NCBI RefSeq assembly: GCF_000024405.1
Contig: NC_013517.1
Coordinates: 930,001-994,000, forward strand
DNA length: 64,000 nt
Direction: 5' to 3'
DNA from: Sebaldella termitidis ATCC 33386
Lineage (GTDB): Bacteria > Fusobacteriota > Fusobacteriia > Fusobacteriales > Leptotrichiaceae
The position numbers and the translations under genes were made by a program. Positions 40,227-57,282 of the stretch are shown piece by piece (the stretch's first letter is position 1; every line of letters begins with the position of its first letter). Under the pieces are notes generated by a model, which saw nothing but the letters and a program-made list of their open reading frames with translations, was not told the DNA's origin and ran no database searches.

Positions 40227-40286
40227 TTTTGTAATTTTATGCTTATTTGTGAGATATATGACAGCTAATCTAGTATGGGGGATTTT

Positions 40287-41054: not shown

Positions 41055-41368
41055 GATGAAGAATAGAAGCATACCAAAGTTTTGTTTTTAATATGATCCG
41101 ATTTTTACTTTTAAAATGGAAGTAAGCCTGATTTTGGAGAATAATTTTTGATTTAGAAAATAATATATAAGAAATTGGTATGTCAAAATTTTCTCCTGTG
41201 TTTTGAATAAATTTGTAATGGAAAAATTATCATCATATAAAACATTATATTTGTTTAAATTACTGTTCTTTCAATTAATTTGTTTGGGTTTTACTGTGCG
41301 TTATTTGATTAATAGATATAAAGATAAGTATTGGAATATTATTGAAATAAATAATAATATAATTAACG
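41055..41368. other. AT-rich spacer with a doubtful small frame
   Basis: A 62-codon frame (41203-41391) with a hydrophobic segment lacks a ribosome site and runs over the promoter of the next gene, so I do not call it. Nothing else seen. Confidence 0.4.
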
Positions 41369-41397
41369 TTGACATTAAAAAACAGGTGTGATATAAT
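41369..41397 (+). promoter_or_regulatory. Consensus promoter of the outer-membrane barrel gene
   Basis: TTGACA (41369-41374), 17 bases, TATAAT (41392-41397): both hexamers perfect. The leader is about 25 bases. Confidence 0.9.
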
Positions 41398-41427
41398 TTT
41401 TGAACAAATTATACGGAGGTAAAATTC

Positions 41428-42099
41428 ATGAAAAAATTATTATTAGCTTTTAGCATTTTAGCATTAGGCAGTTTTTCTTTTGCAAATGAAAGAAGCGGGC
41501 CGCAGATTGAAGGAAGGGTAGGCTGGAGCTTTAACAAAAATTATGACAATGATTACGATACTGATTCAAAAGGAATGGAATTTGCAGAAGGCGGGGTAGA
41601 GTTTAGAAAAGCCGGAATAGGAAGTCTTGAAAATTTAGAATTAGGTGTCGGAGGTTCATTTATGTATGATAACGGAACAAGACATACAGTAAATGATTAT
41701 TCGTCTATACCGCTTTACGGTGTGGTAAGATATAACATAATAAATATTAATGACAGTATTATGCCGTATGTAAAAGGTCATCTGGGTTATTCGATAAATT
41801 CTCTTTCAGATAATGTCTATAATTCACAGGGAGGACGTGTAGACGGGGATATGAAAGGCGGACTTTATTATGGTGTTGGTATAGGAGTAGAACTGTACGG
41901 ATTTACTGTTGAATTGATGTATAGAGGAATTAATGCAGAGTTTAAACAGGATGATAAATATGATTACTATGATGGTGAAACAAAAGCTAATAAAACATCA
42001 TTGGGACTAAGTATAGGGTATAATGTATCCTGTCTTATTAATCCTGCTGCATGCTACGAAAGTGCATTTAAGCAGCCTGATTATATTCTGGTAAAATAG
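41428..42099 (+). CDS. Outer-membrane beta-barrel protein
   Basis: 223 residues, ATG behind CGGAGG. Signal peptide MKKLLLAFSILALGSFSFA. The mature part is made of alternating strands with Gly/aromatic pattern (GPQIEGRVGWSFNKN, LENLELGVGGSFMY, YVKGHLGYSINSL, GLYYGVGIGVELYGFTVELM), an eight-stranded small barrel of the OmpW/opacity type. The last strand (SLGLSIGYNV) is followed by an unusual extension with two cysteines (CLINPAACYESAFKQPDYIL). The perfect promoter predicts high expression. Function could be adhesion or a small pore. Confidence 0.8.
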   Translation: MKKLLLAFSILALGSFSFANERSGPQIEGRVGWSFNKNYDNDYDTDSKGMEFAEGGVEFRKAGIGSLENLELGVGGSFMYDNGTRHTVNDYSSIPLYGVVRYNIININDSIMPYVKGHLGYSINSLSDNVYNSQGGRVDGDMKGGLYYGVGIGVELYGFTVELMYRGINAEFKQDDKYDYYDGETKANKTSLGLSIGYNVSCLINPAACYESAFKQPDYILVK

Positions 42100-42128
42100 A
42101 AAAAGTATATAAAAATAATAGAAAATAG

Positions 42129-42168
42129 CGGGCTGTATTAAAATTTAATTTTGGTACAGCTCGTTTTA
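42129..42168 (+). terminator. Terminator of the barrel gene
   Basis: CGGGCTGTA pairs with TACAGCTCG (one mismatch), followed by TTTT. Confidence 0.8.
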
Positions 42169-42385
42169 ATTATATAAAATGAGGTAATGGTCATTATTTA
42201 GGAAATTTATATAAAAGAAAAGCTTGAGAAAATTACTTGAGAAGAAGCTCAGGCAGGATTAACACTGGAAGAATTTATAATTTTGAATTCTAATTTGGAT
42301 TTGTGAAGTAATATTTATCTGATAAAATTTTTAAAAGAGAAAAAAGTATGGAGAATTTACATAAAAAATTTTTTCAAAAAAAATC
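42169..42385. other. Intergenic stretch with a small coding remnant
   Basis: Near 42210-42307 one frame reads IKEKLEKIT, a TGA, then EEAQAGLTLEEFIILNSNLD, which looks like the end of a decayed gene. No other feature supported. Confidence 0.3.
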
Positions 42386-42414
42386 TTGACAAAAAGCAAT
42401 GAATGTTGTATAAT
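42386..42414 (+). promoter_or_regulatory. Consensus promoter of a structured small RNA
   Basis: TTGACA (42386-42391), 17 bases, TATAAT (42409-42414): both hexamers perfect. No open frame follows within the transcript. Confidence 0.9.
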
Positions 42415-42420
42415 TAATCA

Positions 42421-42700
42421 TAACAATAAATGAAGTACATAATTAAAGAAAAAAAGGTGTAAAAGAAAATTAATCAAAATATTTTGAAGTTAAGAGTTTT
42501 TAAAAAAGAAATGACAATAGGAATAAAAATATTTTTTTGATCCATATATTGCAATAAGGCAATGAAGTGAAAAACCTTACTCATTATAAATGACAATTAA
42601 ACAGCCGGACGAATAGTTGGATTTACTATATGTAAATTCTTAACCGGCATGCGGCTCAAGCAGCCCTGGTATATAGAGATATATGCCGGGGTTTTTTTGT
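42421..42700 (+). ncRNA. Candidate structured small RNA before the tail cluster
   Basis: A transcript of about 280 nt from the perfect promoter to a terminator (CCCTGGTATAT 42664-42674 with ATATATGCCGGGG, then T). Inside: GCCGG (42604-42608) pairs with CCGGC (42644-42648), enclosing GGATTTAC (42619-42626) with GTAAATTC (42632-42639). A GGCT/AGCC hairpin follows at 42653-42665. Upstream, AATGA near 42562 pairs with TCATT near 42582. The nested stems and the unpaired ACGAATAGTT look like a folded domain. No known RNA family recognised. Confidence 0.6.
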
Positions 42701-43029
42701 TTTAAAAATTCAGATATTTAGAAAAATTGAATTTAGTGCTTTGAAAGTTTTGTATATTTCAAAATTCATTATTTGAAAAAATATGCATAAAACCATATTC
42801 AGTAAGGATTAATACAAGACAGACAGCATTGTTTTGAAACTCAGGTTAAAATTTGTGGAAATAATAAATATATCAATCAGGGTACAAAAATCAGTTGTTT
42901 TTTAACTTATTCTCCGTAAAAACCAGGTACGGCATTGATATATTTATGTTTTCATAAATAAACGGAAAGGGGCTGATTTCATAATGAAGTAAATAATTTT
43001 CGCAATAATTTACAGAAAGGGTAAAAAAT
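42701..43029. other. Region upstream of the tail operon
   Basis: No gene. TATTTATG and CATAAATA form a hairpin near 42946-42965. The ribosome site of the first tail gene is AGAAAGGG. I see no clear promoter for the tail operon here; read-through from the RNA promoter is possible. Confidence 0.4.
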
Positions 43030-43503
43030 ATGATTTTAGAAGTAGAGAATACTCTGTTTGACGCTTTACGGAATTTATTTAAGGAAAACGTTTTTGAAAC
43101 AGAAAACGGAAGTAAAACTCCTGTTATTGCAAGAGCATATTCATCACTTGAGAATATAGACAAGGACAGTATAAGTTATCCCTGTATTCTGGTAAAGCTT
43201 GATGAAGATACACATCTTGTGACAAAGGAAAAAGAAGATAAAAGCCTGAAATATCATTTTTTTATCGCAACAGATATTTCCAATAAGGAAAAGTCCTATG
43301 AAGAAACAGTAAAAATGTACGAAATCATTAAAAGCACTGTTGTAAATAACGGACGAATAGGCAATGTCATTGCGGACAGAAGAAATATGAAAGGAACTTT
43401 ATCGGAAAACGGTCAGAATCCGTTTATATGGATGGATATGAGTGTGCAAATCACTGATGCCGTTCTTACCACAAATTTAGAGGAGGAAAATTTTTATGAT
43501 TGA
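43030..43503 (+). CDS. Phage-tail terminator-like protein
   Basis: 157 residues. First gene of the tail operon. ENTLFDALRNLFKENVFETE, then ISYPCILVKLDEDTHL and KYHFFIATDISNKEKSYEET have the alpha/beta layout of small tail-terminator or tail-completion proteins that precede the sheath gene in Mu- and P2-like tails. The end overlaps the next gene by eight bases. The call rests mainly on position and length. Confidence 0.55.
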   Translation: MILEVENTLFDALRNLFKENVFETENGSKTPVIARAYSSLENIDKDSISYPCILVKLDEDTHLVTKEKEDKSLKYHFFIATDISNKEKSYEETVKMYEIIKSTVVNNGRIGNVIADRRNMKGTLSENGQNPFIWMDMSVQITDAVLTTNLEEENFYD

Positions 43504-43771
43504 AAATTTGCAGGAAACAGAAATCAAAATCGGCAGAGCCGGTAAAATGGTTTATATAGGCCCTAATATTGAGGGACTGTTAAGCGGTACAGTATTTGAC
43601 TATATGCCTGAATTGGAAAATTACAAAGAATATGAAAGTATTGAAAAATTATTTATTCCATTGGAGTCTCTGAAGGAAGAAACTTTGAAGCTGAGAGAAA
43701 AATCAAATTATCTGCATTTTATCTATGATGAAATAGCAGAATCAAAAAAGAGAAAAGGGAGTGTTGATTAA
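43496..43771 (+). CDS. Small tail-cluster protein of unknown role
   Basis: 91 residues, ATG behind GAGGAGG. IKIGRAGKMVYIGPNIEGLL, then a helical C-terminus (LEELK-type KEETLKLREKSNYLHFIYDE). It sits between the terminator-like gene and the sheath, overlapping both by a few bases, so it is part of the same assembly. Possibly a connector or chaperone; no family recognised. Confidence 0.5.
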   Translation: MIENLQETEIKIGRAGKMVYIGPNIEGLLSGTVFDYMPELENYKEYESIEKLFIPLESLKEETLKLREKSNYLHFIYDEIAESKKRKGSVD

Positions 43772-45201
43772 TGGCGTTAGAACATGGAATTTATACGAGA
43801 GAGATAGATACGGCAGGCTTTTCAATGGTTTCTGTTGATACAGCCATTCCGTTTATAGTGGGGACTGCCCCTATTAATATGAAAGATACAAAGAATGTAA
43901 ATAATGTAGTATTCTGCAATAACCTTGCAGAATTTACAGAAGCATTCGGGTCATCGAATAATCTTATGGATTACACACTAGTACAGGCTGCGAAGGTATA
44001 TTTTACACTTTATGGTGTAGGGCCGGTATTTATGGTAAATGTACTTGACCCGAAAAAGCATGCTTCTGCTGTAATAACTGAGGAAGTGGCAGTTACTGAC
44101 AAGAAAGCTGTAATTGAAACAGAAGGGATACTGCAGAATACATTAAAAGTAACAAATAAAGCGAGTTCTGCAGAGCTTGTAAAAGGAACTGACTATTATG
44201 TTTCTTATGATGAAGACGGATATGTAGAAATTTATCTTGTAAATGAAGCAGATATAAAAGTGGAATACAAAAAGCTTGATCCTTCAAAGGTAACAAAAGA
44301 GGATATAATCGGCGGGGTTGATCCTGTGACTTATGACAGAAAAGGTCTGGAATTAATTCATGAGGCATTTGTAAAATACAGAAAAACTGTAGGTGTAGTA
44401 ATGGCTCCGGGATATTCGCATCTTTCTGATGTAATTGCAGTAATGGAAACAAAGACAAAGAATATAAGCGGTGCTTTTCAGGCTCATGCGATTATTGATT
44501 GTCCTGCTGATAAAAAATACAAAGAAATTCCTGAGTGGAAAAACAGCCTGAACATCGTAGATGAAGATATAATAGGGACTTACGGACTTGTAAGACTTGG
44601 TGACGAGTATTATTACCAGTCGCTTCACTTAGGTGCCCTGATGGCTTCTGTGGATAATAAAGCAGGCGGAGTTCCTTCTGAATCACCGTCAAATAAAAAC
44701 TATAAAATGGATGGATTATTTATAAAAACAGCTGATGGTTTTGAAAAAATAAATCTTGACCTTACACAGGCAAATTATCTGAATGAAAACGGTATTGTAA
44801 CTGCATTAAACTTCGTAAACGGATGGACTTCATGGGGGAACTACAATACATGCTATCCTTCAAGAACAGATATAAAGGATTCTTATGTTCCTGTAAAAAG
44901 AATGTTCAAATGGGCTGCAAATACATTGATATTAAGTACATGGCAGTTTATAGACAGAAAATTTACAAATGTATTAAGAGATTCTATTAATATGACAGTG
45001 GAAGACTGGCTGAAAACATTAACAGGAAATCACCTGTATGATGCAAAGATAGAATTAAGAGAGGAAAGCAATTCTCTTACTGATATGCAGAAAGGTAAAT
45101 TTACATGGCATATAGATTTTAGTCCGATTCTGCCGTTCCAGGCCGGAGTTTATGAATTGGAATATAACTTGAACGATATTACAAATTATTATTTTAAATA
45201 G
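43771..45201 (+). CDS. Contractile tail sheath protein
   Basis: 476 residues. MALEHGIYTREIDTAGFSMV, then IPFIVGTAPINMKD and LVQAAKVYFTLYGVGPVFMV are the N-terminal signatures of the P2 FI-type sheath. The C-terminal part (DWLKTLTGNHLYDAKIELRE, IDFSPILPFQAGVYELEYNL) is the conserved core that packs on the tube. An insertion around residues 105-175 is an outer domain. Length fits P2-like sheaths. It contracts to drive the tube through the target envelope. Tube and tail genes follow in order. Confidence 0.92.
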   Translation: MALEHGIYTREIDTAGFSMVSVDTAIPFIVGTAPINMKDTKNVNNVVFCNNLAEFTEAFGSSNNLMDYTLVQAAKVYFTLYGVGPVFMVNVLDPKKHASAVITEEVAVTDKKAVIETEGILQNTLKVTNKASSAELVKGTDYYVSYDEDGYVEIYLVNEADIKVEYKKLDPSKVTKEDIIGGVDPVTYDRKGLELIHEAFVKYRKTVGVVMAPGYSHLSDVIAVMETKTKNISGAFQAHAIIDCPADKKYKEIPEWKNSLNIVDEDIIGTYGLVRLGDEYYYQSLHLGALMASVDNKAGGVPSESPSNKNYKMDGLFIKTADGFEKINLDLTQANYLNENGIVTALNFVNGWTSWGNYNTCYPSRTDIKDSYVPVKRMFKWAANTLILSTWQFIDRKFTNVLRDSINMTVEDWLKTLTGNHLYDAKIELREESNSLTDMQKGKFTWHIDFSPILPFQAGVYELEYNLNDITNYYFK

Positions 45202-45213
45202 GAGGAATAAAAT

Positions 45214-45735
45214 ATGAGTACAAATGTACCTGCAGCGATTAATGCTGCAAAAGTATACGTAGACGGAAGCAACGAAGTAACAGGAATAGCAGAGGTTACA
45301 CTTCCTGAATTAAAATTTATGGTGGCTGAAATAGAGGGCTTTGATATAGCCGGTAAAATAGAAGAGCCTATAATAGGGTCTACAGATGTAATGGATCTTG
45401 TAATGAAATTTTCAGCTATAAACGGGGATATTTCAAATATAAATGATCAGCAGGCACATACATTTCATTTGAGAGCAGCTCAGCAGCATATTGATTCTGC
45501 TACGGGAAATGCCGTTTTAAAAGGTCTTAAAGTAGATATAAAAGGAAAAGTAAAGGAATTCAAAGGCGGAACCGTAAAAGCCGGAGAAAAAACTGAAACT
45601 GAAATAGTTATTTCTTGTCTTGCATATAAAGTAACTTTGGACGGAAAAGAGATCATAAATATAGATAAATTAGGATTTAAGAGCAGTATAAACGGTGTGG
45701 ATCAGGCTAAGAGATTCCAGAGTCTGTTAAGCTAG
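45214..45735 (+). CDS. Tail tube protein
   Basis: 173 residues, ATG behind AGGAGG. VPAAINAAKVYVDGSNEVTG, then VTLPELKFMVAEIEGFDIAG match the P2 FII-type major tail tube, with the typical GxxKVKEFKGGTVKAG loop near residue 115. Follows the sheath by 12 bases as in P2. It forms the inner tube ejected by contraction. Confidence 0.92.
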   Translation: MSTNVPAAINAAKVYVDGSNEVTGIAEVTLPELKFMVAEIEGFDIAGKIEEPIIGSTDVMDLVMKFSAINGDISNINDQQAHTFHLRAAQQHIDSATGNAVLKGLKVDIKGKVKEFKGGTVKAGEKTETEIVISCLAYKVTLDGKEIINIDKLGFKSSINGVDQAKRFQSLLS

Positions 45736-45801
45736 AGTTGCCTTATTTATATTTAAAATTTAGTCAGATAAAACATAATTAAAATCAGGAGGATAATATA
45801 T

Positions 45802-46077
45802 ATGGAAATTAAATTGGAAAAAGCATATGACATTAACGGGGAAATGACAGATACTATCGAGCTGGATTTTGATAAGCTCACAGGAAGACAGCTTATACAG
45901 CTGGAAAAAGAATTTAAGAAGGAAAACAAAGGGGAGTTAATATTAGTGGCGAATAATGCTTTTGCAGCTAAGGTAGCAGCTTTTTGTGCGGGAGTGAAGG
46001 AAGATGATATTCTTGATTTTTCCGGGAAAGACTTTACTACAGTAACAACAGAGGTAACCGTTTTTTTGAATTCATAA
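45802..46077 (+). CDS. Tail assembly chaperone gpE-like
   Basis: 91 residues, ATG behind AGGAGG. IELDFDKLTGRQLIQLEKEF is the gpE/Phage_TAC_7 signature of P2-like tail assembly chaperones, which bind the tape measure before tail polymerisation. The last codons carry a seven-T run (46061-46067) where -1 frameshifting would add the E' extension. Confidence 0.85.
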   Translation: MEIKLEKAYDINGEMTDTIELDFDKLTGRQLIQLEKEFKKENKGELILVANNAFAAKVAAFCAGVKEDDILDFSGKDFTTVTTEVTVFLNS

Positions 46078-46268
46078 AGCCGTTTGATCCGTTAAATTAC
46101 ACCTATTCAGATATATTATCCAAACAAATAGCAAGAATTGTAGTCAGGGGAAATAATAATCTTCAAATGAATCTGAATTACGAGGACTTAAACAATTCCA
46201 GCGTATTTGATCTGATTAAATATGTGGACTTAATATCTGAATTGGAAAAGGAGGTGAAGAATGGCTGA
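46061..46268 (+). CDS. gpE' extension made by -1 frameshifting
   Basis: In the -1 frame after the T run, the sequence reads EFIKPFDPLNYTYSDILSKQ, then RGNNNLQMNLNYEDLNNSSV and ends ELEKEVKNG with TGA at 46266-46268. It has no start codon or ribosome site of its own and overlaps the tape-measure ATG, as E' does in P2 and as gpGT does in lambda. The fusion E-E' would be about 155 residues. Confidence 0.8.
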
Positions 46269-48144
46269 AAAAATCACAGGGAATGATGAATTAAAACGGC
46301 AAAGGGAAGAATATGAAAAAATAATTTCTAAGTTGAATTCTGAAAAAAAAGCTTATGAACAAGTGTATAAAAAGTTGGAAAATATAGAAAAAAATATAAA
46401 ACTAATAGAAAATATTCCTAAATCAATTTTTATTAAGGCTGAAGCAGAACTAGCTATACAAGATAAAAAGAGTGCTAAAAAGTCTAATCAAGGTAAAGAA
46501 GATAAAACGCCTATGTCGTATATTATTCAGGAAGTGACTATGAAATTTGCAGAAACTATACCGCAAATGGGGGCTGTACAGGCAACATCAATGAATTTAG
46601 AAATATATTTAGCTACAATTTGTAGTTTATTACAAATGAATAATGCTAATAATGTTGCTTGGAATTCACTTAATAATGTTATGTTAAGTAGTATTCACAG
46701 TGCTCTATTGGTGAATAATTCTGAACTGGTTTCTTTACGTGATGAGCTTAGTAAATGCAATGAAAACTCTGGAAAAATGCTTGTAGAGAATAAAACAAGA
46801 TCTGAAGAAGCAGAACAAAAATCAACTGTAGATGTACTGGGAAATTTTTTGGATGTATTTGCTACAACATCAAGATATTTTGTTACACTAGATAAGAGCA
46901 AAAATCCATTTTTAATAAAAGTAGCTGTAGTAGCAACGGTCGCAGATGCAGGCTTTAAAACTGGAAAAATAGTAACTGAAACTTCTCTTTTTAAGAAAAT
47001 ATTTAAAACAACAGCAGTACAATATAACCCAGAATTAGGAGATAACTTTAGAAATAAACTTGTTCCTCTAGGAGAAATAAAAAATCCTAATACAGCAATA
47101 ACTGTTTCGTCACCATCAGGTTTTGAACTATATAATTCTAACGTGGAGAAGGGAACAACAAATAATCAGTCAGCTAAAAGTCTAGAAAAATTAAAAAAAC
47201 TTGAAGAAGGCATAGCAAAATCAAATATGGATAACAGGTTAAATGAAACAACAGTAAATATGCAACCAAACGCAGCTTTTAATCCCTCAACTAACACACC
47301 TGATCCCTCCCAAGGTACAGGAATCGAAGAAAAACTAGCTTTAATGCAGGCATCATCAACAGAAAACATGAATGCCTTAGCATTACTCTGGGATACTTAT
47401 CTGCAGAAAGTAAGCCAAGTCTACGATATGATTCTGCTGACAATAAGCATGAAACATATGTTAATGACAATGAACACATTGTTAACAATACTAAATCTAT
47501 ACCTGACATGGATGACTTTACCGCCGATGCTCGAAGGAGTATGGCAGCAGATATTATCTGGTGCAGATATATTTTTATCAAACCTGAAATCAAAATTTAC
47601 TGCGGCAATATCTGAAATAAAGCAGAAAATGTTGGAATTGTCTTCAGTTAGCATAAATCCGCCGTCTTCTGGAGGCGGAGCACCCGGACACAAATATACA
47701 GGTACAGGTTTCTGGAAAGGTGGATTAACATATGTAGGAGAAAGAGGGCGTGAATTAATCCAGTATCCTACAGGAGAACGTTTTATGGCAGAAGCAAAGA
47801 TGCTTATGAATCTGCCGAAAGGTACCAAAATATTCAGAAATTCCATGACAGAAAGAATAATGAATAATGGATTTTCCGGAAATAATATGATGACAGCAGA
47901 TGAAAACAATCAGTTAAAGAAATTAGGTGGATTTAATGGTTTATCAGATTATACCGATTCTAAATTTGGCGGAGGCATTAATTATTCAAGTGTTAAAGCC
48001 GATAATATCACAGTTAATATAACAAATACATATGGAAATCAGTCACCGGCACAAATAAAAGATACAAACAATGATTTGGTCAGAAAAATAAATGAAGTAT
48101 TATTTCAGAAGGAAGACAGGAAAAGGAGGGTAAGTATTGGATAA
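46261..48144 (+). CDS. Tail tape measure protein
   Basis: 627 residues, ATG behind AGGAGG. Starts with a charged coiled coil (NDELKRQREEYEKIISKLNS), then a long helical and partly hydrophobic middle (IKVAVVATVADAGFKTG; ILNLYLTWMTLPPMLEG). The C-terminal signature GTGFWKGGLTYVGERGRELI is common to tape measure proteins. At about 0.15 nm per residue, known for tape measures, it predicts a tube of about 90 nm, short like R-type pyocins. It follows the E/E' pair as in P2. Confidence 0.88.
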   Translation: MAEKITGNDELKRQREEYEKIISKLNSEKKAYEQVYKKLENIEKNIKLIENIPKSIFIKAEAELAIQDKKSAKKSNQGKEDKTPMSYIIQEVTMKFAETIPQMGAVQATSMNLEIYLATICSLLQMNNANNVAWNSLNNVMLSSIHSALLVNNSELVSLRDELSKCNENSGKMLVENKTRSEEAEQKSTVDVLGNFLDVFATTSRYFVTLDKSKNPFLIKVAVVATVADAGFKTGKIVTETSLFKKIFKTTAVQYNPELGDNFRNKLVPLGEIKNPNTAITVSSPSGFELYNSNVEKGTTNNQSAKSLEKLKKLEEGIAKSNMDNRLNETTVNMQPNAAFNPSTNTPDPSQGTGIEEKLALMQASSTENMNALALLWDTYLQKVSQVYDMILLTISMKHMLMTMNTLLTILNLYLTWMTLPPMLEGVWQQILSGADIFLSNLKSKFTAAISEIKQKMLELSSVSINPPSSGGGAPGHKYTGTGFWKGGLTYVGERGRELIQYPTGERFMAEAKMLMNLPKGTKIFRNSMTERIMNNGFSGNNMMTADENNQLKKLGGFNGLSDYTDSKFGGGINYSSVKADNITVNITNTYGNQSPAQIKDTNNDLVRKINEVLFQKEDRKRRVSIG

Positions 48145-48349
48145 GAAACTGGATGTGTATTATACGAAAGAAGGAGATACATGGGATAAAATTGCTTATA
48201 ACGTTTATAATGACGAACTTCTGTATATCGATCTTATGCTGGCAAATGTTCTGCTTATTGATATAGCAGTATTTGATGCAAATATTCCCGTGATATGCCC
48301 TGACATAAAACCGACAAACAATGCAAACCTGCCGCCTTGGAAGCAATAG
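48137..48349 (+). CDS. Tail protein X (LysM-like)
   Basis: 70 residues, TTG start behind GGAGGG, overlapping the tape measure gene by eight bases. DVYYTKEGDTWDKIAYNVYN is the gpX LysM-like start, followed by ELLYIDLMLANVLL. In P2-like tails gpX is needed near the baseplate hub. Position between tape measure and hub gene agrees. Confidence 0.85.
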   Translation: MDKKLDVYYTKEGDTWDKIAYNVYNDELLYIDLMLANVLLIDIAVFDANIPVICPDIKPTNNANLPPWKQ

Positions 48350-48358
48350 GAGGAGTAT

Positions 48359-49447
48359 ATGGAATCAAGGGAAACACTGCTTGTTATTACTTATAACGGC
48401 AAGGATATAAGTACAGATATTCAGCCGTATATTCAGTCATTCAGCTATCATGACAATTCCAAGCTTGAAATCGATGATATAGATTTATCTCTGGAAAATA
48501 TTGATAAAAGATGGTTTGGAGAAGAATGGTTTCCTGAAGACGGTGACAGTATAACAGCATCTATTGTAAAAAGAAGATGGGATGACGAGCTCATAGAAGA
48601 GACGCTTCCCTGTGGAAAATTTTATGTAGACCAGATTGATTTTTATCCGGGCTCTGTGAGCATAAAAGCTCTTGCCATACCTTCTGCGGGAAATCTGACT
48701 AAACAGGAAAACAGCAAAGGCTGGGAAAAAATTTCTCTTAAGAATATAGCAATGGATATTTGTAATAAACATAGCATGAAGCTTGAATTTTATTCTGAAA
48801 AAGATGAGACTTTTGAAAGGATAGATCAGGATAAAGAAACAGATCTGGCATTTTTGACTCGGATATGCACAGATCAGGGGCTAAATCTAAAAGCTACGGA
48901 AAACAAAGTTGTTGTATTTGATAAAGAAGAATTTTATGAAAAGGAAGCAGTCATATCAGTATCTAGTTTAGATACTGATATGATAATAGATTATAAATTT
49001 TCTCATACTACTAAAGAAATTTATGACAAAGTAGAAGTCAGTTATTATGATCCTGAGAAGAAAAAGCTGGTGAGGGAAACTTATACCAAAGACGAGCTTG
49101 AAGAAAAGAGAAATAAAGAAAGAGAAGCTGAGAAAAAAAAGGAAAGTTCAAAAGCTTCGCAAAGAGGTCAGAGTAAAAATCAGAAAAGCAGCAAAGGTTC
49201 AGGTCCTACAAAAAAGATAAACGGAACCGGCGGAAGCAAAAAAGCCAAAGCCGCAATGGACGAAAAAAATAAAGAAAAAGAAACGGCAAGTATGACACTC
49301 CGCGGGAATTTCAGTCTTTTGGCAGGACAAAATGTAGAACTTACAGATTTCGGGAAATTCAGCGGAAAATATGCCATAGAAAAATCAACTCACAGTTTGA
49401 GCGGAGCTTATACGACAGATATTGAATTAAAGAGGATAAAAGAATGA
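48359..49447 (+). CDS. Baseplate hub protein gpD-like
   Basis: 362 residues, ATG behind AGGAGG. TYNGKDISTDIQPYIQSFSY and DIDLSLENIDKRWFGEEWFP match the late-control D / hub family. An insertion at about residues 235-305 is strongly basic and low in complexity (KKKESSKASQRGQSKNQKSS and following), probably an exposed linker. The C-terminal strands (LLAGQNVELTDFGKFSGKYA) belong to the gp27-like fold. It forms the collar on which the spike trimer sits. Confidence 0.87.
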   Translation: MESRETLLVITYNGKDISTDIQPYIQSFSYHDNSKLEIDDIDLSLENIDKRWFGEEWFPEDGDSITASIVKRRWDDELIEETLPCGKFYVDQIDFYPGSVSIKALAIPSAGNLTKQENSKGWEKISLKNIAMDICNKHSMKLEFYSEKDETFERIDQDKETDLAFLTRICTDQGLNLKATENKVVVFDKEEFYEKEAVISVSSLDTDMIIDYKFSHTTKEIYDKVEVSYYDPEKKKLVRETYTKDELEEKRNKEREAEKKKESSKASQRGQSKNQKSSKGSGPTKKINGTGGSKKAKAAMDEKNKEKETASMTLRGNFSLLAGQNVELTDFGKFSGKYAIEKSTHSLSGAYTTDIELKRIKE

Positions 49448-49977
49448 ATATAGAAGATATTATCAGAGTGGGAAATGTAGACAGCATAAATGCCCAGAAC
49501 GGCACTGTAAGAGTAAGATTTCCCGACAGAGACGATAAGGTGTCAAAGGAGCTTAAGGTAATTTATCATAAGACACATCAGGATAAATCATATTTTATAC
49601 CTGAAATCAATGAGATAGTATTATGTGTATTTCTGCCCGGCACTCAGGAGGAAGGCTTTGTTTTGGGAGCTTTTTATAATCAGGAGGATACTGTGCCTGT
49701 TTCTGACCCGAATAAAGCTGCCTGGTATTTTTCAGACGGAGGAATAATAGAATATGACAGGGCAGCAGGAAATCTGCTTATAAATGCCATAAGCAAAGTA
49801 GAAATAAAAGCGCCTGAAGTGGAAATAACAGCGGGAAATATTACTCTGAACGGAAATGTAAAAGTTTCTGAAAATCTGGAAGTTTCAGGCTCTTCAAAAT
49901 TAAAAGACGTAAAAGCAGAAAGTGTGGATGCATCAGGCGGTGTAAAGAAAGGCGGGGCACTGTATATTCATCCGTAA
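49444..49977 (+). CDS. Baseplate spike protein gpV-like
   Basis: 177 residues, overlapping the hub gene (ATGA). DIIRVGNVDSINAQNGTVRV is the OB-fold of gpV, then IVLCVFLPGTQEEGFVLGAF. The C-terminal part (VEIKAPEVEITAGNITLNG and the repeats after it) is a short beta-helix that pierces the envelope. No cysteine/histidine tip motif like that of P2 gpV is obvious, and no separate PAAR gene is visible. Confidence 0.88.
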   Translation: MNIEDIIRVGNVDSINAQNGTVRVRFPDRDDKVSKELKVIYHKTHQDKSYFIPEINEIVLCVFLPGTQEEGFVLGAFYNQEDTVPVSDPNKAAWYFSDGGIIEYDRAAGNLLINAISKVEIKAPEVEITAGNITLNGNVKVSENLEVSGSSKLKDVKAESVDASGGVKKGGALYIHP

Positions 49978-49997
49978 TAAGCGAAAGGAGGTAACAT

Positions 49998-50498
49998 ATG
50001 CAGATTGGATCTTTTGGAGATGTTATATTTCGTGTAGAAGAAGAAAATATACTGACAATAAAGGCAATGAGCAGGGAGAAAAAATCCAGATGGGAAGAAG
50101 CCCAGATACTAAACGATTTGTCATTTTTGGAATTCCGCGGAAGGGATCTGACGACAGTCAGTCTGGATATACAGCTAATAGAAACTTCCAAAATGAAAAT
50201 AGTAGATACGCTTAATACATTAAATAATATGCTGGAAAACGGCGAGAATCACGAACTGATTCTCGGAAATACACTGATAGGGGAATTTCCGTTTGTACTG
50301 GAGAGCATGTCGGAAAAATTTGAAAAACATCAGGAGCAGTTTCAGCATGTAGAGTTATCAATAACCTTGAAAGAATATAGGGACAATCAGAAAAGCTTGA
50401 AACAGATAAGGGAAGAAAGAAATAAAAAACAGAATACCGAACAGGTTTCTGAAGGAACAATAATGGCTGAACAGACTGAGGTGAGCAGAAATGTATGA
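49998..50498 (+). CDS. Tail protein gpU-like
   Basis: 166 residues, ATG behind AAAGGAGG. QIGSFGDVIFRVEEENILTI, then WEEAQILNDLSFLEFRGRDL and FVLESMSEKFEKHQEQFQHV match the Phage_P2_GpU family. In P2, gpU terminates the tail, but the gene sits at the end of the tail operon; here it is between V and W. The C-terminus is a charged extension. Overlaps the next gene by eight bases. Confidence 0.82.
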   Translation: MQIGSFGDVIFRVEEENILTIKAMSREKKSRWEEAQILNDLSFLEFRGRDLTTVSLDIQLIETSKMKIVDTLNTLNNMLENGENHELILGNTLIGEFPFVLESMSEKFEKHQEQFQHVELSITLKEYRDNQKSLKQIREERNKKQNTEQVSEGTIMAEQTEVSRNV

Positions 50499-50808
50499 GT
50501 TAAGCAACGAAGATTTCAAAGTAAACTATATGCCTGACACGATCATTGAAGAAATTCTTCAGAACGGAAGAACAATTCTCGGTACTTTTTCAGGAACAGT
50601 TCCTTTGATGCGTGAATTTGCACAGGATTTTTCACTAATAGATCAGAATTCAATAGCAGTTTCCAATATTCTGTTATCCAGATTAATACCTTTATTTAAG
50701 AAATATGAGCCAAGAATAAGACTTAAGAGTCTTGATATAGATATGAACAGAAAAACAGGAATAACAGGAACATTTTATATAAAGTGTTATGTGGAGGTGA
50801 TTGCGTGA
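50491..50808 (+). CDS. Baseplate wedge protein gpW / gp25-like
   Basis: 105 residues. EEILQNGRTILGTFSGTVPL and RLIPLFKKYEPRIRLKSLDI have the GPW_gp25 layout, where the EPR motif ('YEPRI') is conserved in contractile baseplates and type VI secretion. It joins the sheath to the wedge. Overlaps gene J by four bases. Confidence 0.87.
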   Translation: MYELSNEDFKVNYMPDTIIEEILQNGRTILGTFSGTVPLMREFAQDFSLIDQNSIAVSNILLSRLIPLFKKYEPRIRLKSLDIDMNRKTGITGTFYIKCYVEVIA

Positions 50809-51914
50809 ATAATGAAGATTTTGACTTTATTGATACTACGGCAAAAGATAATGAAACGGCAGCAGTAAATAAATATGCGGAGTTAACAGGCGTTCAGCTG
50901 ACAGAAGCTGATCCGAGAAGAATTATATTTAAATCCGTGTCATATATGCTGGCACTGGCTCAGGAAGTAATGAATGATACTGCAAAACAGAATTTTCTAA
51001 GATTTGCAAGAGACAACAGGCTTGATGCAAAAGGGGAGCTGTATGGAACCCGCGGGAAAAGACTGGATTCCGAGCCTGCAAGAACAACACTGCAGTTTGA
51101 GATAAGTGCTCCCCAGCAGAGTGATGTGGTTATACCTCTTGGAACAAAGACTACAGTTAATAAGCTGATATTCAAAACTGAGGAAGAGGGGCGTATAAAA
51201 AAAGGCGAAACTACAGTAGATGTTCAGGCTGTATGTACTGAAAACGGCGAGACAGGAAACGGGTTTCTGCCGGGGCAGATAGATAAAATAGTTGATGTTT
51301 TTCCGTATTATAAATCTGTAAAGAACATTACCGAAAGTAAAGGCGGAACAACTGTGGAAGCTGATGATCAGTACAGGGAAAGACTTATGGCCGTACCTGA
51401 AAGCTTTTCGGTGGCCGGTCCGTCAGGGGCTTATGAATTCTGGGCGAAATCAACAAGCCCTCTAATAACTAATGTAAGGGCAATATCTCCGACACCGGGC
51501 TGTGTGGATATTTATATCTGGACAAAATATGGAGAGCCTACGGTAGAGCTCATACATCAGGTTCAGGAGAAGGTCAGCGATGCAGAAGTAAGACCGCTTA
51601 CAGATCTGGTAACTGTAAAGGTTCCTGAAAAGGTTTATTATTCTGTTGATCTTGAGTATTATATTGATAAAGAAAATGAACTTTATGCAGATGAAATAGA
51701 AAAAAATGTAAGAAGTATGGTTGCCGAGTGGGTAAGCTGGCAGCAGGAAAAGCTGGGAAGAGATATAAATACTGATGAACTGATTTATCGTCTGAAAAAA
51801 ATAGGAGTAAAAAGAGTAAAAATCTTAAGTCCGGTATTTACAAAAATAGACGAGCATGAAGTTGCTATCATAGAAAGTGATGCAAATATTGTAAATAAAG
51901 GAACAGAAATATGA
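50805..51914 (+). CDS. Baseplate wedge protein gpJ-like
   Basis: 369 residues from GTG 50805 (GGAGGTG site; overlaps the previous stop). ADPRRIIFKSVSYMLALAQE and the repeat GTKTTVNKLIFKTEEEG are family features, and the C-terminal half GGTTVEADDQYRERLMAVPE to SVAGPSGAYEFWAKS is the core signature of Baseplate_J. It forms the wedge with gpI. Four-base overlap with gpI. Confidence 0.92.
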   Translation: MNNEDFDFIDTTAKDNETAAVNKYAELTGVQLTEADPRRIIFKSVSYMLALAQEVMNDTAKQNFLRFARDNRLDAKGELYGTRGKRLDSEPARTTLQFEISAPQQSDVVIPLGTKTTVNKLIFKTEEEGRIKKGETTVDVQAVCTENGETGNGFLPGQIDKIVDVFPYYKSVKNITESKGGTTVEADDQYRERLMAVPESFSVAGPSGAYEFWAKSTSPLITNVRAISPTPGCVDIYIWTKYGEPTVELIHQVQEKVSDAEVRPLTDLVTVKVPEKVYYSVDLEYYIDKENELYADEIEKNVRSMVAEWVSWQQEKLGRDINTDELIYRLKKIGVKRVKILSPVFTKIDEHEVAIIESDANIVNKGTEI

Positions 51915-52552
51915 AGCGGATATATGATGTAAGTTTATTTGATTTTATACCGTTTAATTTTAAAGGTGATAAGGAAACAGAATATATAATAGAAACAATC
52001 GATTATCTGCTGAGAGAAAGATTTATAAAGCAGATACCCGAGGTTATACTGCTGGACAGGGTAGAACAGCTGGAGGACTGGAAGGTAAACGAGCTTTTTG
52101 CAGAATTTCATGTGGACTATTATAACAAAAATGTTTCTATAGAACAGAAAAGAGAACTTATCAAAACTTCCCTTCTTACTCACAGAACAAAAGGGACTCC
52201 GTTTGCTCTTAAGATCATTACGGATATTCTTTTCAAGAACGGAAAGGTCATGGAATGGTTTGATTATGACGGAGACCCCTATAAATTCAAAATAAGCACA
52301 CAAAGCGACCTGAAAAATCAGGATGATTATGATCAGACAATTCAGGCAATAGAGATTTATAAAAATGCCCGTTCATGGCTGGAAAGTATTATTTTTAACA
52401 GGACAGACGATATGGAGCTTTTTGAGGCACATTTATCGCAGAAGAAAGTAAAGACTGTTCTGAATATGATAGAGCTTGAATTTCCTGTGGAAAATACAAA
52501 AAATCATACAGGGATTGCAACATTTGAGCACAGGAAAATGGAGATAAGGTAA
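51911..52552 (+). CDS. Tail protein gpI-like
   Basis: 213 residues. VEQLEDWKVNELFAEFHVDY, then KRELIKTSLLTHRTKGTPFA match Tail_P2_I, the wedge partner of gpJ that anchors the fibres. Start ATG overlaps the J stop (ATGA). Length fits the family. Confidence 0.9.
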   Translation: MKRIYDVSLFDFIPFNFKGDKETEYIIETIDYLLRERFIKQIPEVILLDRVEQLEDWKVNELFAEFHVDYYNKNVSIEQKRELIKTSLLTHRTKGTPFALKIITDILFKNGKVMEWFDYDGDPYKFKISTQSDLKNQDDYDQTIQAIEIYKNARSWLESIIFNRTDDMELFEAHLSQKKVKTVLNMIELEFPVENTKNHTGIATFEHRKMEIR

Positions 52553-52597
52553 TTAATTTATAAATCTGAAAATAAATTTTTGGAAAAAGGAGGAAAA

Positions 52598-53734
52598 ATG
52601 GCAGAATTCAGCGGATTTATCCTTACCAATAAGGGAAGGGAATTACTGGCAAAAGCAGTGGCAGGAGAAACTCTGACATTTACAAAAATCAGTTTTGGAG
52701 ACGGACTCTATGAAGGGGATAAAAAAGAGATACAGGAATTGGCAGGTCTGAGAAATGTATTTTTTATTAATCAGATAAAGAAAACAGGTGTCGGGCAGGT
52801 TTCTTTGAGAGCTGTTATTACCAACAGGGCAGTGGAAACGGGTTATCATATAAAGGAAATAGGAATATATGCTGTCTGCGGGAATGAGGAGGAGGTTCTT
52901 TATGCTTATAATACAGCTGTGGAAGCAGATTATCTTCCGCCGTTTAACGGGAATAACCTTATAGAGCTTGAGTATCAGAATTATATTGTAATTGATCAGG
53001 CTGAAAAGGTGACGGCTATTATAGATCCTAGTGCTACTTATTTGACTAAGGAGGAGGCAGAGGAGATTTATGTTCCGCAGACGCAGGTGGCAGATGAAAA
53101 AAAATCTGGGATAGTTAACTTGGCTAAAATCAGAAAAGAGATTGGATATTTAGCACATGCACAATATGATGGTATATTTGGATCGGATTTGAAAAAAATA
53201 GTAAACGGAAAAAGTTATTTATATATAGATGATAATGGAGACGGCTACATTTATAAAGCTAAACAGAATAACGCAAATACAGCAGGGTTTTTAACTCCCA
53301 CAGATGAAAATTTTGTAAACATAAGTAATAACATCTTAAATGAGAGAGTTAATAATATTGAATACAGAATTTCAAAATATGGACAGATAGCAAACTGGAG
53401 TCAGGGCGGACGTTATATAGATTCAAATTATGAGGTTATAAAAGCAGATTCAAAAGATGAATTTCATATCAGAGTAAAAGAGTGGGGCATATATATGTTT
53501 AGTGCGAAGGCTTTCGTTTATATGAATGCAAATTCAAGAGCAAATATAGCTGTTTATAATGATAATGCATTAGCAGGAGATACAAGAAATGGAATTATGA
53601 CTGCTGGAACAGAGATGTTGACATTGCCAGTAGTAACAAATGCAGTAGCAGCAGGGAAAACAATAAGATTCTTAACTACAGGGCAAACAAGCATAGGCTC
53701 TGAATGGGGTTATTATATAACACGATTAGTGTAA
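52598..53734 (+). CDS. Tail fibre protein 1
   Basis: 378 residues; I choose ATG 52598 behind AAAGGAGG. The N-terminal ~180 residues (FSGFILTNKGRELLAKAVAG, then IKEIGIYAVCGNEEEVLYAY) are the phage tail-collar domain that attaches to the baseplate. The C-terminal part from about residue 260 (ANWSQGGRYIDSNYE, WGIYMFSAKAFVYMNANSRA) looks like a jelly-roll receptor-binding tip. The collar domain is shared with the next gene but the tip is not. Confidence 0.85.
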   Translation: MAEFSGFILTNKGRELLAKAVAGETLTFTKISFGDGLYEGDKKEIQELAGLRNVFFINQIKKTGVGQVSLRAVITNRAVETGYHIKEIGIYAVCGNEEEVLYAYNTAVEADYLPPFNGNNLIELEYQNYIVIDQAEKVTAIIDPSATYLTKEEAEEIYVPQTQVADEKKSGIVNLAKIRKEIGYLAHAQYDGIFGSDLKKIVNGKSYLYIDDNGDGYIYKAKQNNANTAGFLTPTDENFVNISNNILNERVNNIEYRISKYGQIANWSQGGRYIDSNYEVIKADSKDEFHIRVKEWGIYMFSAKAFVYMNANSRANIAVYNDNALAGDTRNGIMTAGTEMLTLPVVTNAVAAGKTIRFLTTGQTSIGSEWGYYITRLV

Positions 53735-53745
53735 GAGGAGGTAAA

Positions 53746-54927
53746 ATGGGAAGTTTTAATGGTTTTATTTTAACAAATAATGGAAAGAAACTATTGGAAG
53801 AAGCATTAACGGGGAAAAGACTTGTGTTTACTAAATTTCAGTTTGGTGATGGGGAAACAACAGAGGATCCTAAGGAAGTAACAGAATTAGTTAATATGAG
53901 TAAGGAAACGACTATTAATCAGATAGAAAACAATGGAAACGGTCAGGTAATGTTAAGAGTTATCATAGATAACAAAGATATTGATACAGGCTATTATATA
54001 AAAGAAATAGGTGTTTTTGCCAAATGTGATGACGGTAAGGAAGTTTTATATGCTTATAATAAAGCTATGAAGCCGGATTATTTACCTGTTTATAATGGAA
54101 TAAATCTTGTGGAACTGGAATATCAAAATTATATAACAATTGCTCAGATTGAGGATGTAACAGCTATTATTGATGAAAATTTTACTTATCTTACAAAAGA
54201 AGAGGCTAATGAGAAGTTTGTTAAACAGACTCAGCTGGCATTGGAGGAAAAACCTGGAATCATTACTTTGAATGAGGTTTATGAAGCTGGAATGCCTTTT
54301 AGAGGTATTCTTCCCTATGAAAATAAAATCTTGACGTATAGAGAAGTTATGGCTTTAAGAGATGGAGTTTATTCTGTAGAAGGAGCTAAATATTTTAAGT
54401 GCTTGAATATTCCAAAGAGTGACAGGGGAATGCATGATTGGGGAATATTAAGGAAAAAAACATTTGAAATATTAGAGGATCAAATAGCAACGAAACAGAC
54501 TACCTTGGAGTATATACCACATAATTATAGGGCTGGAGTAAGTTCAACTATGTTACATTTCTGGAATAGGGAAGCTTCTATGGATTTAGAATTAAATACA
54601 AGTTATGAAATAGCAGGATTTTGGGTAACAAATGTTGGGTGGGATAAATTTAGCATGGCTAATCCTGGATATGCTAAATTAGCAAATGGTCTAACAATGC
54701 AATGGGGACAAATAACTTCTTCTGTTAGTAGTACAGATTATAAATATTTTCCTGTAGCATTTGACAATGAAGTATTTGTTGGGCTTTCGTCATATAGTAC
54801 TTTGGAGTCTTTAGGAATGGGAACAGCTTTTCAAAAAGTTGATAGATCAAGATTTCTTTTGAGCTGTCGTTTATCAAACGGGAATTTGGTACAGGGTCAT
54901 GTTCCATGGATAGCAATAGGATTTTAA
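53746..54927 (+). CDS. Tail fibre protein 2
   Basis: 393 residues from ATG 53746 behind AGAGGAGG. The collar domain (FNGFILTNNGKKLLEEALTG, IKEIGVFAKCDDGKEVLYAY) aligns with fibre 1 over about 180 residues. The rest differs and ends in LANGLTMQWGQITSS ... WIAIGF, the gp53-like tip found in many tail fibres. Base composition of the tip is more AT-rich than the collar, suggesting a separate origin. With fibre 1, it gives the particle two receptor specificities, or one is a silent alternative. Confidence 0.85.
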   Translation: MGSFNGFILTNNGKKLLEEALTGKRLVFTKFQFGDGETTEDPKEVTELVNMSKETTINQIENNGNGQVMLRVIIDNKDIDTGYYIKEIGVFAKCDDGKEVLYAYNKAMKPDYLPVYNGINLVELEYQNYITIAQIEDVTAIIDENFTYLTKEEANEKFVKQTQLALEEKPGIITLNEVYEAGMPFRGILPYENKILTYREVMALRDGVYSVEGAKYFKCLNIPKSDRGMHDWGILRKKTFEILEDQIATKQTTLEYIPHNYRAGVSSTMLHFWNREASMDLELNTSYEIAGFWVTNVGWDKFSMANPGYAKLANGLTMQWGQITSSVSSTDYKYFPVAFDNEVFVGLSSYSTLESLGMGTAFQKVDRSRFLLSCRLSNGNLVQGHVPWIAIGF

Positions 54928-54936
54928 GGAGGTTTA

Positions 54937-55344
54937 ATGAATATATTATTAGATAAAGAAACTAAAACTTTAATGGGTTTTAGTTTAAAAGAAAAAGAGG
55001 AATATGAGAATCAAGAAATATCTGATGAAGAGCACAAAAAGTTTATAGAATTACAATCAAATGGCTATAGCTTGCTATGGAATAAAGTAAAAAATCAGGT
55101 GGAGTCAGTTAAACTTAATCAATTCGAATTCATAAATGAAAACGGCAAAATAGAGAAAAATATAGAAGCAGAAAAACAATATAACAATGACACACTTCTA
55201 AAGCTAAAGAGAGAGAAAATACAGTTGAAAAAAGACATAGCAGATTTTGAAGAGTTTGAAGAAGACACAGCATATCTGAAAGAACAGCTAAAAGAAAAAG
55301 AGACAGAAATAAAAGAACTGGAAGAGCAGTTAAAAAAATTGTAA
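54937..55344 (+). CDS. Coiled-coil protein at the fibre locus, possible fibre assembly protein
   Basis: 135 residues, ATG behind AAGGAGG, nine bases after fibre 2. The N-terminal half (LLDKETKTLMGFSLKEKEEY, then FIELQSNGYSLLW) resembles short fibre-assembly or XkdX-like proteins; the C-terminal half is one coiled coil (LKRKEIQL-type heptads to LEEQLKKL). Location after the fibres supports a chaperone role, which is not proven. Confidence 0.5.
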   Translation: MNILLDKETKTLMGFSLKEKEEYENQEISDEEHKKFIELQSNGYSLLWNKVKNQVESVKLNQFEFINENGKIEKNIEAEKQYNNDTLLKLKREKIQLKKDIADFEEFEEDTAYLKEQLKEKETEIKELEEQLKKL

Positions 55345-55363
55345 AGATAAAAAAGGAGGAATT

Positions 55364-55681
55364 ATGAATTTCATAAAAAACCTAATATCATTCTACACAC
55401 AAAACACACTGCTAAATACAGTAATATTAATAGCAGCAGCAATTCTGTGCTGGTTTTTGTGGACATACAGAAAGCTGAAAGTAATGGCTTTAGCAGCAAG
55501 TATAAAAGCAGAATTAAAAGCTTATCTAAAAGGAGAGCAGAAACTGAATTTTGCTTTGGAATGGCTTATGAAACAAGACTTTTTTAAAAACACTATATTA
55601 AAATTTATACCTGCAAAAATAGTAAAATGGGTTATAAATACAATATTTAATGCAAACAAAGAAACTATAGAAGCAAAATAA
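55364..55681 (+). CDS. Holin-like small membrane protein
   Basis: 105 residues, ATG behind AAGGAGG. One strong membrane segment near residues 18-36 (TVILIAAAILCWFLWTYRKL), then an amphipathic, basic C-terminal half. Location at the end of the tail operon, next to another small one-span protein, suggests a role in release. No endolysin gene is in the operon. Confidence 0.5.
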   Translation: MNFIKNLISFYTQNTLLNTVILIAAAILCWFLWTYRKLKVMALAASIKAELKAYLKGEQKLNFALEWLMKQDFFKNTILKFIPAKIVKWVINTIFNANKETIEAK

Positions 55682-55706
55682 CCATAAAAATTTATAAGGT
55701 GGTATA

Positions 55707-55886
55707 ATGGATCTTACTAAATTGGCAGATTACGGTATAATGGGAATAGTTCTGACCTATTTTATCTGGAAAGATATAAAAACCTTTGAAACATTTAAGG
55801 AATCTATGAGAGAAATAGTGGATGAACTAAAGGAACTGAATATAAGAATCGATAAGCTTGAACAAAATGATAAAGGGCCTGAATAA
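55707..55886 (+). CDS. BhlA/UviB-like holin
   Basis: 59 residues from ATG 55707 behind AAGGTGG. MDLTKLADYGIMGIVLTYFI, then WKDIKTFETFKESMREIVDE and a charged coiled end. One N-terminal membrane helix followed by a coiled coil is the BhlA/UviB layout of bacteriocin-associated holins. It closes the tail operon and is followed directly by a terminator. Confidence 0.7.
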   Translation: MDLTKLADYGIMGIVLTYFIWKDIKTFETFKESMREIVDELKELNIRIDKLEQNDKGPE

Positions 55887-55902
55887 TTCAGGTTCCTTTT
55901 AA
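55872..55902 (+). terminator. Terminator of the tail operon
   Basis: AAAGG and CCTGAA (55872-55883) pair with TTCAGG and CCTTT (55887-55899), followed by T-rich sequence. Confidence 0.8.
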
Positions 55903-55968
55903 TTTTAAAAATTATTTGGCTGTTATTGTACAATTCATAATTTTATTATAATATAAAAAAATATAAAA

Positions 55969-55997
55969 TTGACAAAATAAGAACTCTATATTAGAAT
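55969..55997 (+). promoter_or_regulatory. Promoter of the methyltransferase gene
   Basis: TTGACA (55969-55974), 17 bases, TAGAAT (55992-55997), 21 bases before the ATG. Confidence 0.75.
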
Positions 55998-56018
55998 GTT
56001 AAGACGAGGAGGTTTAAA

Positions 56019-56717
56019 ATGTCAAAAGAGTATGTATATTCAGATTATACTTACAATAGTAGAAATCCATTAGTAAGATTTTCACATAGAAAAAGATTTT
56101 TAACTGCATTGAATTTTATTTTAAAAGAAAATTTTAAAAATCTTTTAGATTATGGAGCAGGGGACGGGCATTTTTTAAAAGAAGTATCAAAAATAAAAAC
56201 AGATATAGAGCTGGTTGGTTTTGAACCGATTATGGACAATACTGATTCAGAGAAAATAAAGTATTATTCAGATGTGTCAGATATCAAGGATCAGAAATAT
56301 GATGTAATTACATGTTTTGAAGTTTTGGAACATTTCAATTCAAACGCTCAGAATGAAATACTGGAAAATATATATAATCTTTTAAGTGATGATGGAGTGG
56401 TAATTATTTCTGTTCCAATAGAAATTTACTTTCCAAGTTTTATAAAGAACATCATAAGGATAAAATATACTAAATTGGATTTTCAATATATAAAAAATAT
56501 ATTGAAAGCATTGTTCGCTATGAACATTCCTGAAATACGAAATGAGGAAGGATATATAGGAACTCACTTAGGTTTTAATTATAAAAAACTAGAACTTTTA
56601 TTTAAGAAATATTTTAAAATAATGCAAAAGAAAAACTCTCCTATGGAGTATTTACCTGTAATAGTAAATTCACAAGTTTTTTATAAACTCAAAAAAAATA
56701 GCAGTAACTGTTCTTAA
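56019..56717 (+). CDS. Class I SAM-dependent methyltransferase
   Basis: 232 residues, ATG behind GAGGAGG. Motif I is LLDYGAGDGHFLKEV near residue 42, followed by the acidic residue of motif II (VGFEPI), then DVITCFEVLEHF (motif IV region) and LSDDGVVIISVP. This is a complete Methyltransf_11/23-type core. The C-terminal part is rich in Lys and aromatic residues. It may modify a sugar, lipid or quinone-like acceptor; the neighbours do not tell. A GNAT gene follows 26 bases after it. Confidence 0.87.
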   Translation: MSKEYVYSDYTYNSRNPLVRFSHRKRFLTALNFILKENFKNLLDYGAGDGHFLKEVSKIKTDIELVGFEPIMDNTDSEKIKYYSDVSDIKDQKYDVITCFEVLEHFNSNAQNEILENIYNLLSDDGVVIISVPIEIYFPSFIKNIIRIKYTKLDFQYIKNILKALFAMNIPEIRNEEGYIGTHLGFNYKKLELLFKKYFKIMQKKNSPMEYLPVIVNSQVFYKLKKNSSNCS

Positions 56718-56743
56718 TATTGAATTTGAAAGGAGAAATATAG

Positions 56744-57229
56744 ATGATATCTTACAGAAAAGCAGGGAAATCTGACATAGATGAATTAGTAAGAATAAGA
56801 AGTATTTTTCTTGAGGAATATGACAGGGAAAATCATTTGAATAATAAGGAAAATGTAGATAAAGAAGTGGAAAAATATCTGCAGAAATTTATGGATACAG
56901 AAATATTTACAGGCTTTGTAGCAGAAAAAGATGATAAAATAGTGGGGACAAGTGCGATAGCTTTTTATGATATTCTTCCGGCGGCACTTTATATGAACGG
57001 AAAACTAGGATATATTTCTAACGTCTTTGTTTTTCCCGAATACAGAAAACAGGGAATAGCAAAAAAACTTTTTGAACTGGCAGTAAATGAGGGACTTGAC
57101 AGAAACTGTTCCAAGCTGACACTTCATGCGAGTAAGGACGGAGAGCCTGTATATAAAAAATTCGGATTTGTAAAAACTGCAACTGAAATGGAATATGTAA
57201 ATGAGAAGTTTTATAACACAAAAAAATAA
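56744..57229 (+). CDS. GNAT-family N-acetyltransferase
   Basis: 161 residues, ATG behind AAAGGAG. Acetyl-CoA loop VFPEYRKQGIAKKLF near residues 99-113 (R/Q-x-x-G-x-A), preceded by the strand GYISNVFV; the end VYKKFGFVKTATEMEYV is typical. Probably in one operon with the methyltransferase. Acceptor unknown. Confidence 0.9.
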   Translation: MISYRKAGKSDIDELVRIRSIFLEEYDRENHLNNKENVDKEVEKYLQKFMDTEIFTGFVAEKDDKIVGTSAIAFYDILPAALYMNGKLGYISNVFVFPEYRKQGIAKKLFELAVNEGLDRNCSKLTLHASKDGEPVYKKFGFVKTATEMEYVNEKFYNTKK

Positions 57230-57239
57230 TATTGAAAAT

Positions 57240-57282
57240 AAAAATATCTGTATAAAAGTTCTTAAACAGATATTTTTATTTA
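57240..57282 (+). terminator. Terminator after the acetyltransferase
   Basis: AAAATATCTGT (57241-57251) pairs with ACAGATATTTTT (57266-57277), followed by T. Confidence 0.85.

Follow-up and report, generated by a model that had tools for sequence, protein, structure and literature searches.

The chromosome of Sebaldella termitidis ATCC 33386, a member of a genus of the Leptotrichiaceae (NC_013517.1; the genome, G000, comprises 4.49 Mb in three contigs) contains, within the 64,000 nucleotides that were analysed (positions 930,001 to 994,000; this stretch is called the window, and coordinates are those of the window unless stated otherwise), a complete set of contractile tail genes with intact reading frames. 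We regard this locus with considerable confidence as a domesticated R-type (contractile) tailocin, the product of which is most likely a bacteriocin particle that would kill related bacteria. For comparison served a metagenome-assembled genome (MAG) of a sister species (G026, 86% complete) and the genome of a third species (G025, 99% complete).

The tail genes (43030–55886) are open and run in a single direction, all substantial genes lying on the + strand in the order of a P2-type contractile tail (Table 1; gene names are from Pfam and PHROGs family models), and they form one operon behind a strong promoter. An initial annotation, made from the letters alone, had placed all of them at these positions; the order of tail parts that it read is confirmed by the family models and by the fold match of the terminator, and position 42386, at which it let the cluster start, proved to be the beginning of a 12/12 sigma-70 promoter. 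It had also called an E/E′ pair, and indeed the slippery site at 46061 is identical in all three species and the product has 155 amino acids in each. In phage P2 the E/E′ pair is likewise made by a −1 frameshift.

Table 1. Features of the tail locus of S. termitidis (window coordinates).
Feature	Position	Strand	Evidence
Left edge of conserved unit, upstream of promoter	42310..42385	+	alignment resumes at 42310 (G026), ~42280 (G025)
Sigma-70-type promoter, TTGACA-17-TATAAT	42386..42414	+	12/12 match; hexamers identical in three species
Structured RNA leader and intrinsic terminator, candidate attenuator	42555..42693 (terminator stem 42662-42693)	+	fold z −3.4
Predicted tail terminator (gpR-like), caps tail at head-joining end	43030..43503	+	predicted structure; homologue before sheath in headed prophages
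Small conserved tail gene preceding sheath	43496..43771	+	PHROG 4089 E 3e-9; positional match in prophages
Tail sheath FI	43771..45201	+	PHROG 23 E 2e-70
Tail tube FII	45214..45735	+	PF04985 E 9e-41
Tail assembly chaperone E	45802..46077	+	PF10109 E 2e-5, PHROG 3140
E′ extension via −1 frameshift at TTTTTTTG (46061-46068)	45802..46268	+	site and 155-aa fusion kept in three species
Tape measure, 627 aa, N-terminal part swapped between species	46261..48144	+	position; alignment with G026 (692 aa) and G025
Tail protein X	48137..48349	+	PF05489
Baseplate hub D	48359..49447	+	PF05954, PHROG 52 E 1e-77
Baseplate spike V	49444..49977	+	PF04717
Tail protein U	49998..50498	+	PF06995 E 5e-22
Baseplate wedge W	50491..50808	+	PHROG 43 E 3e-10
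Baseplate J	50784..51914	+	PF04865 E 3e-45
Tail protein I	51911..52552	+	PF09684 E 3e-17
Fibre H1, 93% over whole length in G026	52580..53734	+	PF12571
Fibre H2, C-terminus (Gp53-like) replaced in G026	53704..54927	+	PF12571 and PF21882; G026 copy without PF21882
Gene in fibre-assembly position; G026 has a tail-fibre-assembly (PHROG 136) protein instead	54937..55344	+	position; no family match here
Holin-like membrane protein	55364..55681	+	26% identity, E 8e-6 to prophage (891–930 kb) protein; 93-94% in sisters
Second small holin-like membrane protein	55707..55886	+	PHROG 4898 holin at E 0.027 only; conserved in G025

The product of the first tail gene (43030–43503) had no family match in Pfam or PHROGs. 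Its AF2 model (pLDDT 75) matches best the tail terminator of phage Mu (Z 13.0) and also the collar or cap proteins of pyocin R2 (Z 11.4) and diffocin (Z 10.4); judged by this predicted structure, it is the tail terminator. The product of 54937–55344 matches at 40% that of the gene after the fibre in a G025 prophage.

The head genes of the nearest headed relatives end exactly where the tail locus begins. The relatives of the sheath in the Leptotrichiaceae are complete, separate prophages that have, directly before terminator and sheath, the genes of a GpA-type terminase, portal, S49 protease, decoration protein, capsid and minor tail protein Z; this order is also annotated in the phages Funu1 and JD-Fnp3 and, without a Z annotation, in 473R2. 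The Fusobacterium phages Funu1 and JD-Fnp3 and the Leptotrichiaceae prophages share the tail gene order of the locus (sheath 37–40% identical) but, unlike the locus, have terminase, portal, protease, capsid and Z directly upstream, and the two phages have in addition an integrase and a longer tape measure (841–915 aa vs 627 aa). A scan of viral contigs with the sheath found relatives at 38% only. With the head proteins of three related phages zero matches were obtained in the 64 kb window, the 20 kb to its right and the G026 locus, in a search of which the positive controls worked (the expected genes were recovered in control prophages). Head, packaging, integrase and endolysin genes of related phages were all missing from the window and from the 20 kb to the right, as the initial annotation had maintained for the immediate surroundings; the Z gene, which precedes the terminator in the headed relatives, is absent from the locus, and the terminase, portal, capsid and integrase of a complete prophage were not found there. 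Since head genes adjoin the terminator in the relatives and no head match occurs here, synteny breaks exactly at the tail terminator. In a tree of J the locus groups, as its sister, with the tail of a Sebaldella prophage that lies in G025 (67% identity, support 0.98); an amidase endolysin follows this prophage tail.

Elsewhere on the S. termitidis chromosome, a complete-looking prophage lies at 891000–929900, outside the window and 42 kb upstream of the tail locus; it has a terminase, portal, capsid, 981-aa tape measure, amidase and holin-like genes, and a sheath unrelated to that of the tailocin locus. At chromosome positions 2682571–2685720 there is a dead relative, in which a deletion has fused the first half of the portal gene to the last third of gpJ and of which the GpA-type terminase is 83% identical to that of a headed prophage in G025; a few kb away (2677243–2678742) a 499-aa protein with an N-terminal DUF4280 is encoded.

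In the sister species G026 the headless locus is complete and contiguous on one contig, with the same neighbors as in the window (to the left an ABC permease, to the right a methyltransferase and a GNAT), so that the conserved site without head genes for which the initial annotation advised to look in related genomes does exist. A single G026 contig corresponds to window 29922–35637 followed by 42310–57247, with a nucleotide identity of about 93% along most of the contig; the 6.7 kb in between (35637–42310) are absent in G026 and therefore lie outside the unit. All frames are open in S. termitidis, and in G026 all except a frameshifted 59-aa gene. An intact copy is found in two species only, one of them a MAG. 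The third species, G025, has the flanking genes and the two ends of the operon, spread over separate contigs; D is missing from this 99% complete assembly, the sole J of which belongs to a prophage. There the frame of the tape measure continues into an IS-like end with GTGGACAC or its complement, and so does the chaperone gene. Apparently, the middle of the locus was lost in G025 through IS elements; alternatively, two insertions and a missing contig would possibly give the same picture. A further member of the genus (G024, 87% complete) is uninformative, because the tail and both flanks are all missing there. In the lineage, then, the locus occupies a fixed chromosomal site under purifying selection and is broken in G025. 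G026 contains a second tail cluster (C182, 40–4041) with a sheath 70% identical, on a contig too short to show whether a head is encoded.

Leaving aside the tape measure, the genes R to I have a dN/dS of 0.00–0.17 between S. termitidis and G026, like that of neighboring genes, and their dS of 0.09–0.43 spans the 0.22–0.25 of the flanking genes. The low dN/dS argues strongly against a decaying remnant and supports the candidate tailocin of the initial annotation; dN/dS and dS together fit vertical inheritance under constraint. (For the GNAT gene the dN/dS value in G026 seems to be an artefact, due to a frameshift in the G026 assembly.) There are three exceptions: the N-terminal part of the tape measure (627 aa in S. 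termitidis vs 692 aa in G026), which is swapped between the species, the C-terminus of fibre H2, and the gene after H2, the latter two, the putative receptor-binding fibre and the gene in chaperone position, being replaced between S. termitidis and G026. Against G025 the synonymous divergence of sheath, tube and E (43771–46077) is 0.23–0.45, lower than the 0.65–0.91 of the flanking genes, hinting at a past exchange of tail genes.

The promoter at 42386–42414 is the sole 12/12 sigma-70 match within 41400–56800. About 140 bases downstream of it begins an RNA leader that folds better than its shuffles (z −3.4) and that ends, about 340 bases short of the first tail gene, in a terminator stem invariant across the three species. 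Elsewhere in the leader three compensatory pair changes were counted, which among three near-identical sequences is not above shuffled controls; because covariation does not exceed the shuffles, the structure rests mainly on folding and conservation. A refolded antiterminator form is possible, the terminator form being the more stable of the two by 9 kcal/mol. The leader matched zero families of Rfam 15 at gathering and permissive thresholds, and BLAST against 33 genomes of the family returned the three tail loci and two weak Leptotrichia matches (E 2e-4 and 1e-3), which were rejected, as they have no Rfam match and lie in or around unrelated lipoprotein genes; an exact 19-base match in a viral contig was dismissed as chance, being located inside a microvirus capsid gene. 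The simplest reading is that of an attenuator or antitermination leader. More tentatively, and in our estimate rather doubtful, 42555–42693 could be a new, Sebaldella-specific class of cis-acting RNA that controls the tailocin operon, the terminator blocking tail transcription until a ligand, a protein or an antitermination factor switches it, and the particles would be produced with no endolysin dedicated to them. A leader that carries a terminator makes it possible to study how an operon of this type stays silent when no repressor gene is adjacent.

The initial annotation had ended the operon with two holin-like proteins. Small membrane proteins are indeed encoded there, and their label is weak: Pfam gave zero support for either, the shorter has a PHROGs holin match only at E 0.027, and the longer resembles at 26% identity (E 8e-6) the protein next to, and after, the endolysin of the 891–930 kb prophage. 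An endolysin was found neither in the locus nor in that of G026, the endolysin of the G025 prophage had no match in the window or the G026 locus, and lytic-enzyme families were lacking among the tail-locus proteins in the regions examined. The locus is thus devoid of an endolysin-bearing lysis cassette, which is usual in R-type tailocins and which we do not take as defining them. Well-studied tailocins carry an endolysin in the locus. In Sebaldella the endolysin would come from another element, or release would follow another route. The missing endolysin and the leader are the unusual features of the locus, and lysis is the least secure step of the mechanism proposed below.

From these data the following scheme can be drawn. 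The source would have been a temperate phage that combined a P2-like tail with a lambda-like head module and that in a Sebaldella ancestor lost its head, packaging, integration and endolysin genes, whereas the tail operon stayed and was probably inherited vertically at one chromosomal site. Leader and terminator would hold transcription until some signal relieves the block. Tails would then assemble to a length of about 95 nm, as estimated from the 627 residues of the tape measure at about 0.15 nm each, and leave the cell by lysis with the two holin-like proteins and a wall-degrading enzyme supplied from elsewhere. Once the fibres had bound to a receptor on the surface of related bacteria, the sheath would contract and the tube pierce the envelope, upon which the cell would die.

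Several observations speak against a tailocin: the locus has no endolysin, no regulator gene is nearby, the copy is intact in only two species, one of them a MAG with the frameshifted 59-aa gene, and in G025 the middle is missing beside IS ends. One rival reading is a cryptic prophage remnant that has simply not yet decayed. The prophage ancestry of the locus is clear, the 2.68 Mb element, where half a portal borders on the last third of gpJ, demonstrates decay in the same genome, and G025 apparently lacks the middle; but the frames are open in S. termitidis and, apart from the 59-aa gene, in G026, dN/dS is 0.00–0.17 from R to I at a synonymous divergence of about 0.2, leader and frameshift site are conserved, and what is missing is confined to head, mobility and endolysin genes. 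We consider a remnant unlikely.

A satellite or split prophage, in which the locus would provide the tails for a head encoded at another place in the genome, appears very unlikely. A complete prophage does lie 42 kb upstream, and a GpA-type terminase with half a portal persists at 2.68 Mb; however, the upstream prophage comes with a different tail of its own, the 2.68 Mb element has lost its capsid and most of its portal, G026 (86% complete) has no match to the portal of the headed relatives, and the gene for Z is also absent. For an extracellular contractile injection system or a type VI secretion system delivering effectors one can cite that gpD is distantly VgrG-like and that the cap protein fold is common to eCIS caps; yet an AAA+ ATPase, a T6SS membrane complex, an effector and a PAAR gene were not seen among the open reading frames and family matches of the locus, and gene order and families are of the P2-phage type, which makes such a system extremely improbable. 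The domesticated tailocin thus remains the best explanation.

Carotovoricin, the R-type tailocin of Pectobacterium, occupies a fixed site throughout the genus and has conserved structural genes and a variable tail-fibre locus and tape measure (PMC13195805), and fixed site, conserved structural genes, variable fibre and variable tape measure recur in Sebaldella. Carotovoricin differs in that its locus includes a holin, a lytic transglycosylase and, in many cases, an invertase of the fibre; in the Sebaldella locus neither a lytic enzyme nor an invertase was seen. In BceTMilo, a Burkholderia tailocin with a P2-type tail, synteny is broken at the tail-head boundary, and the differences from the R-pyocin locus lie in tape measure, fibre and chaperone (PMC5411513). 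Both the break and the three variable genes are shared by the Sebaldella locus. BceTMilo differs in that it has retained holin, endolysin and spanins and in that it lacks the S gene. The variation of tape measure and fibre in the unrelated tailocins carotovoricin, BceTMilo and that of Sebaldella suggests diversifying pressure on the tape measure. Pyocin R2 and diffocin are headless contractile particles, such as the locus would produce, and share with it the predicted cap fold (see above for Z); they belong to other phyla and have low sequence identity, and pyocin-type regulator genes are absent from the Sebaldella locus. In the open-access literature searched, no report of a tailocin or phage-tail-like bacteriocin from Fusobacteria or Leptotrichia was found; the kind of weapon is known, but apparently had not been described in the phylum Fusobacteriota. 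Provided that particles form, fusobacteria of the termite gut and their relatives would use phage tails against rivals.

To the left of the unit, window 37449–41391 encodes a repeated protein family with paired membrane proteins, two copies of which end in FFIDTYTVSY; it is absent from the G026 locus and gave no clear Pfam family among those scanned. Window 15345–22421 encodes a 2358-aa autotransporter with a BigA-type beta domain (Pfam autotransporter, E 1e-37).
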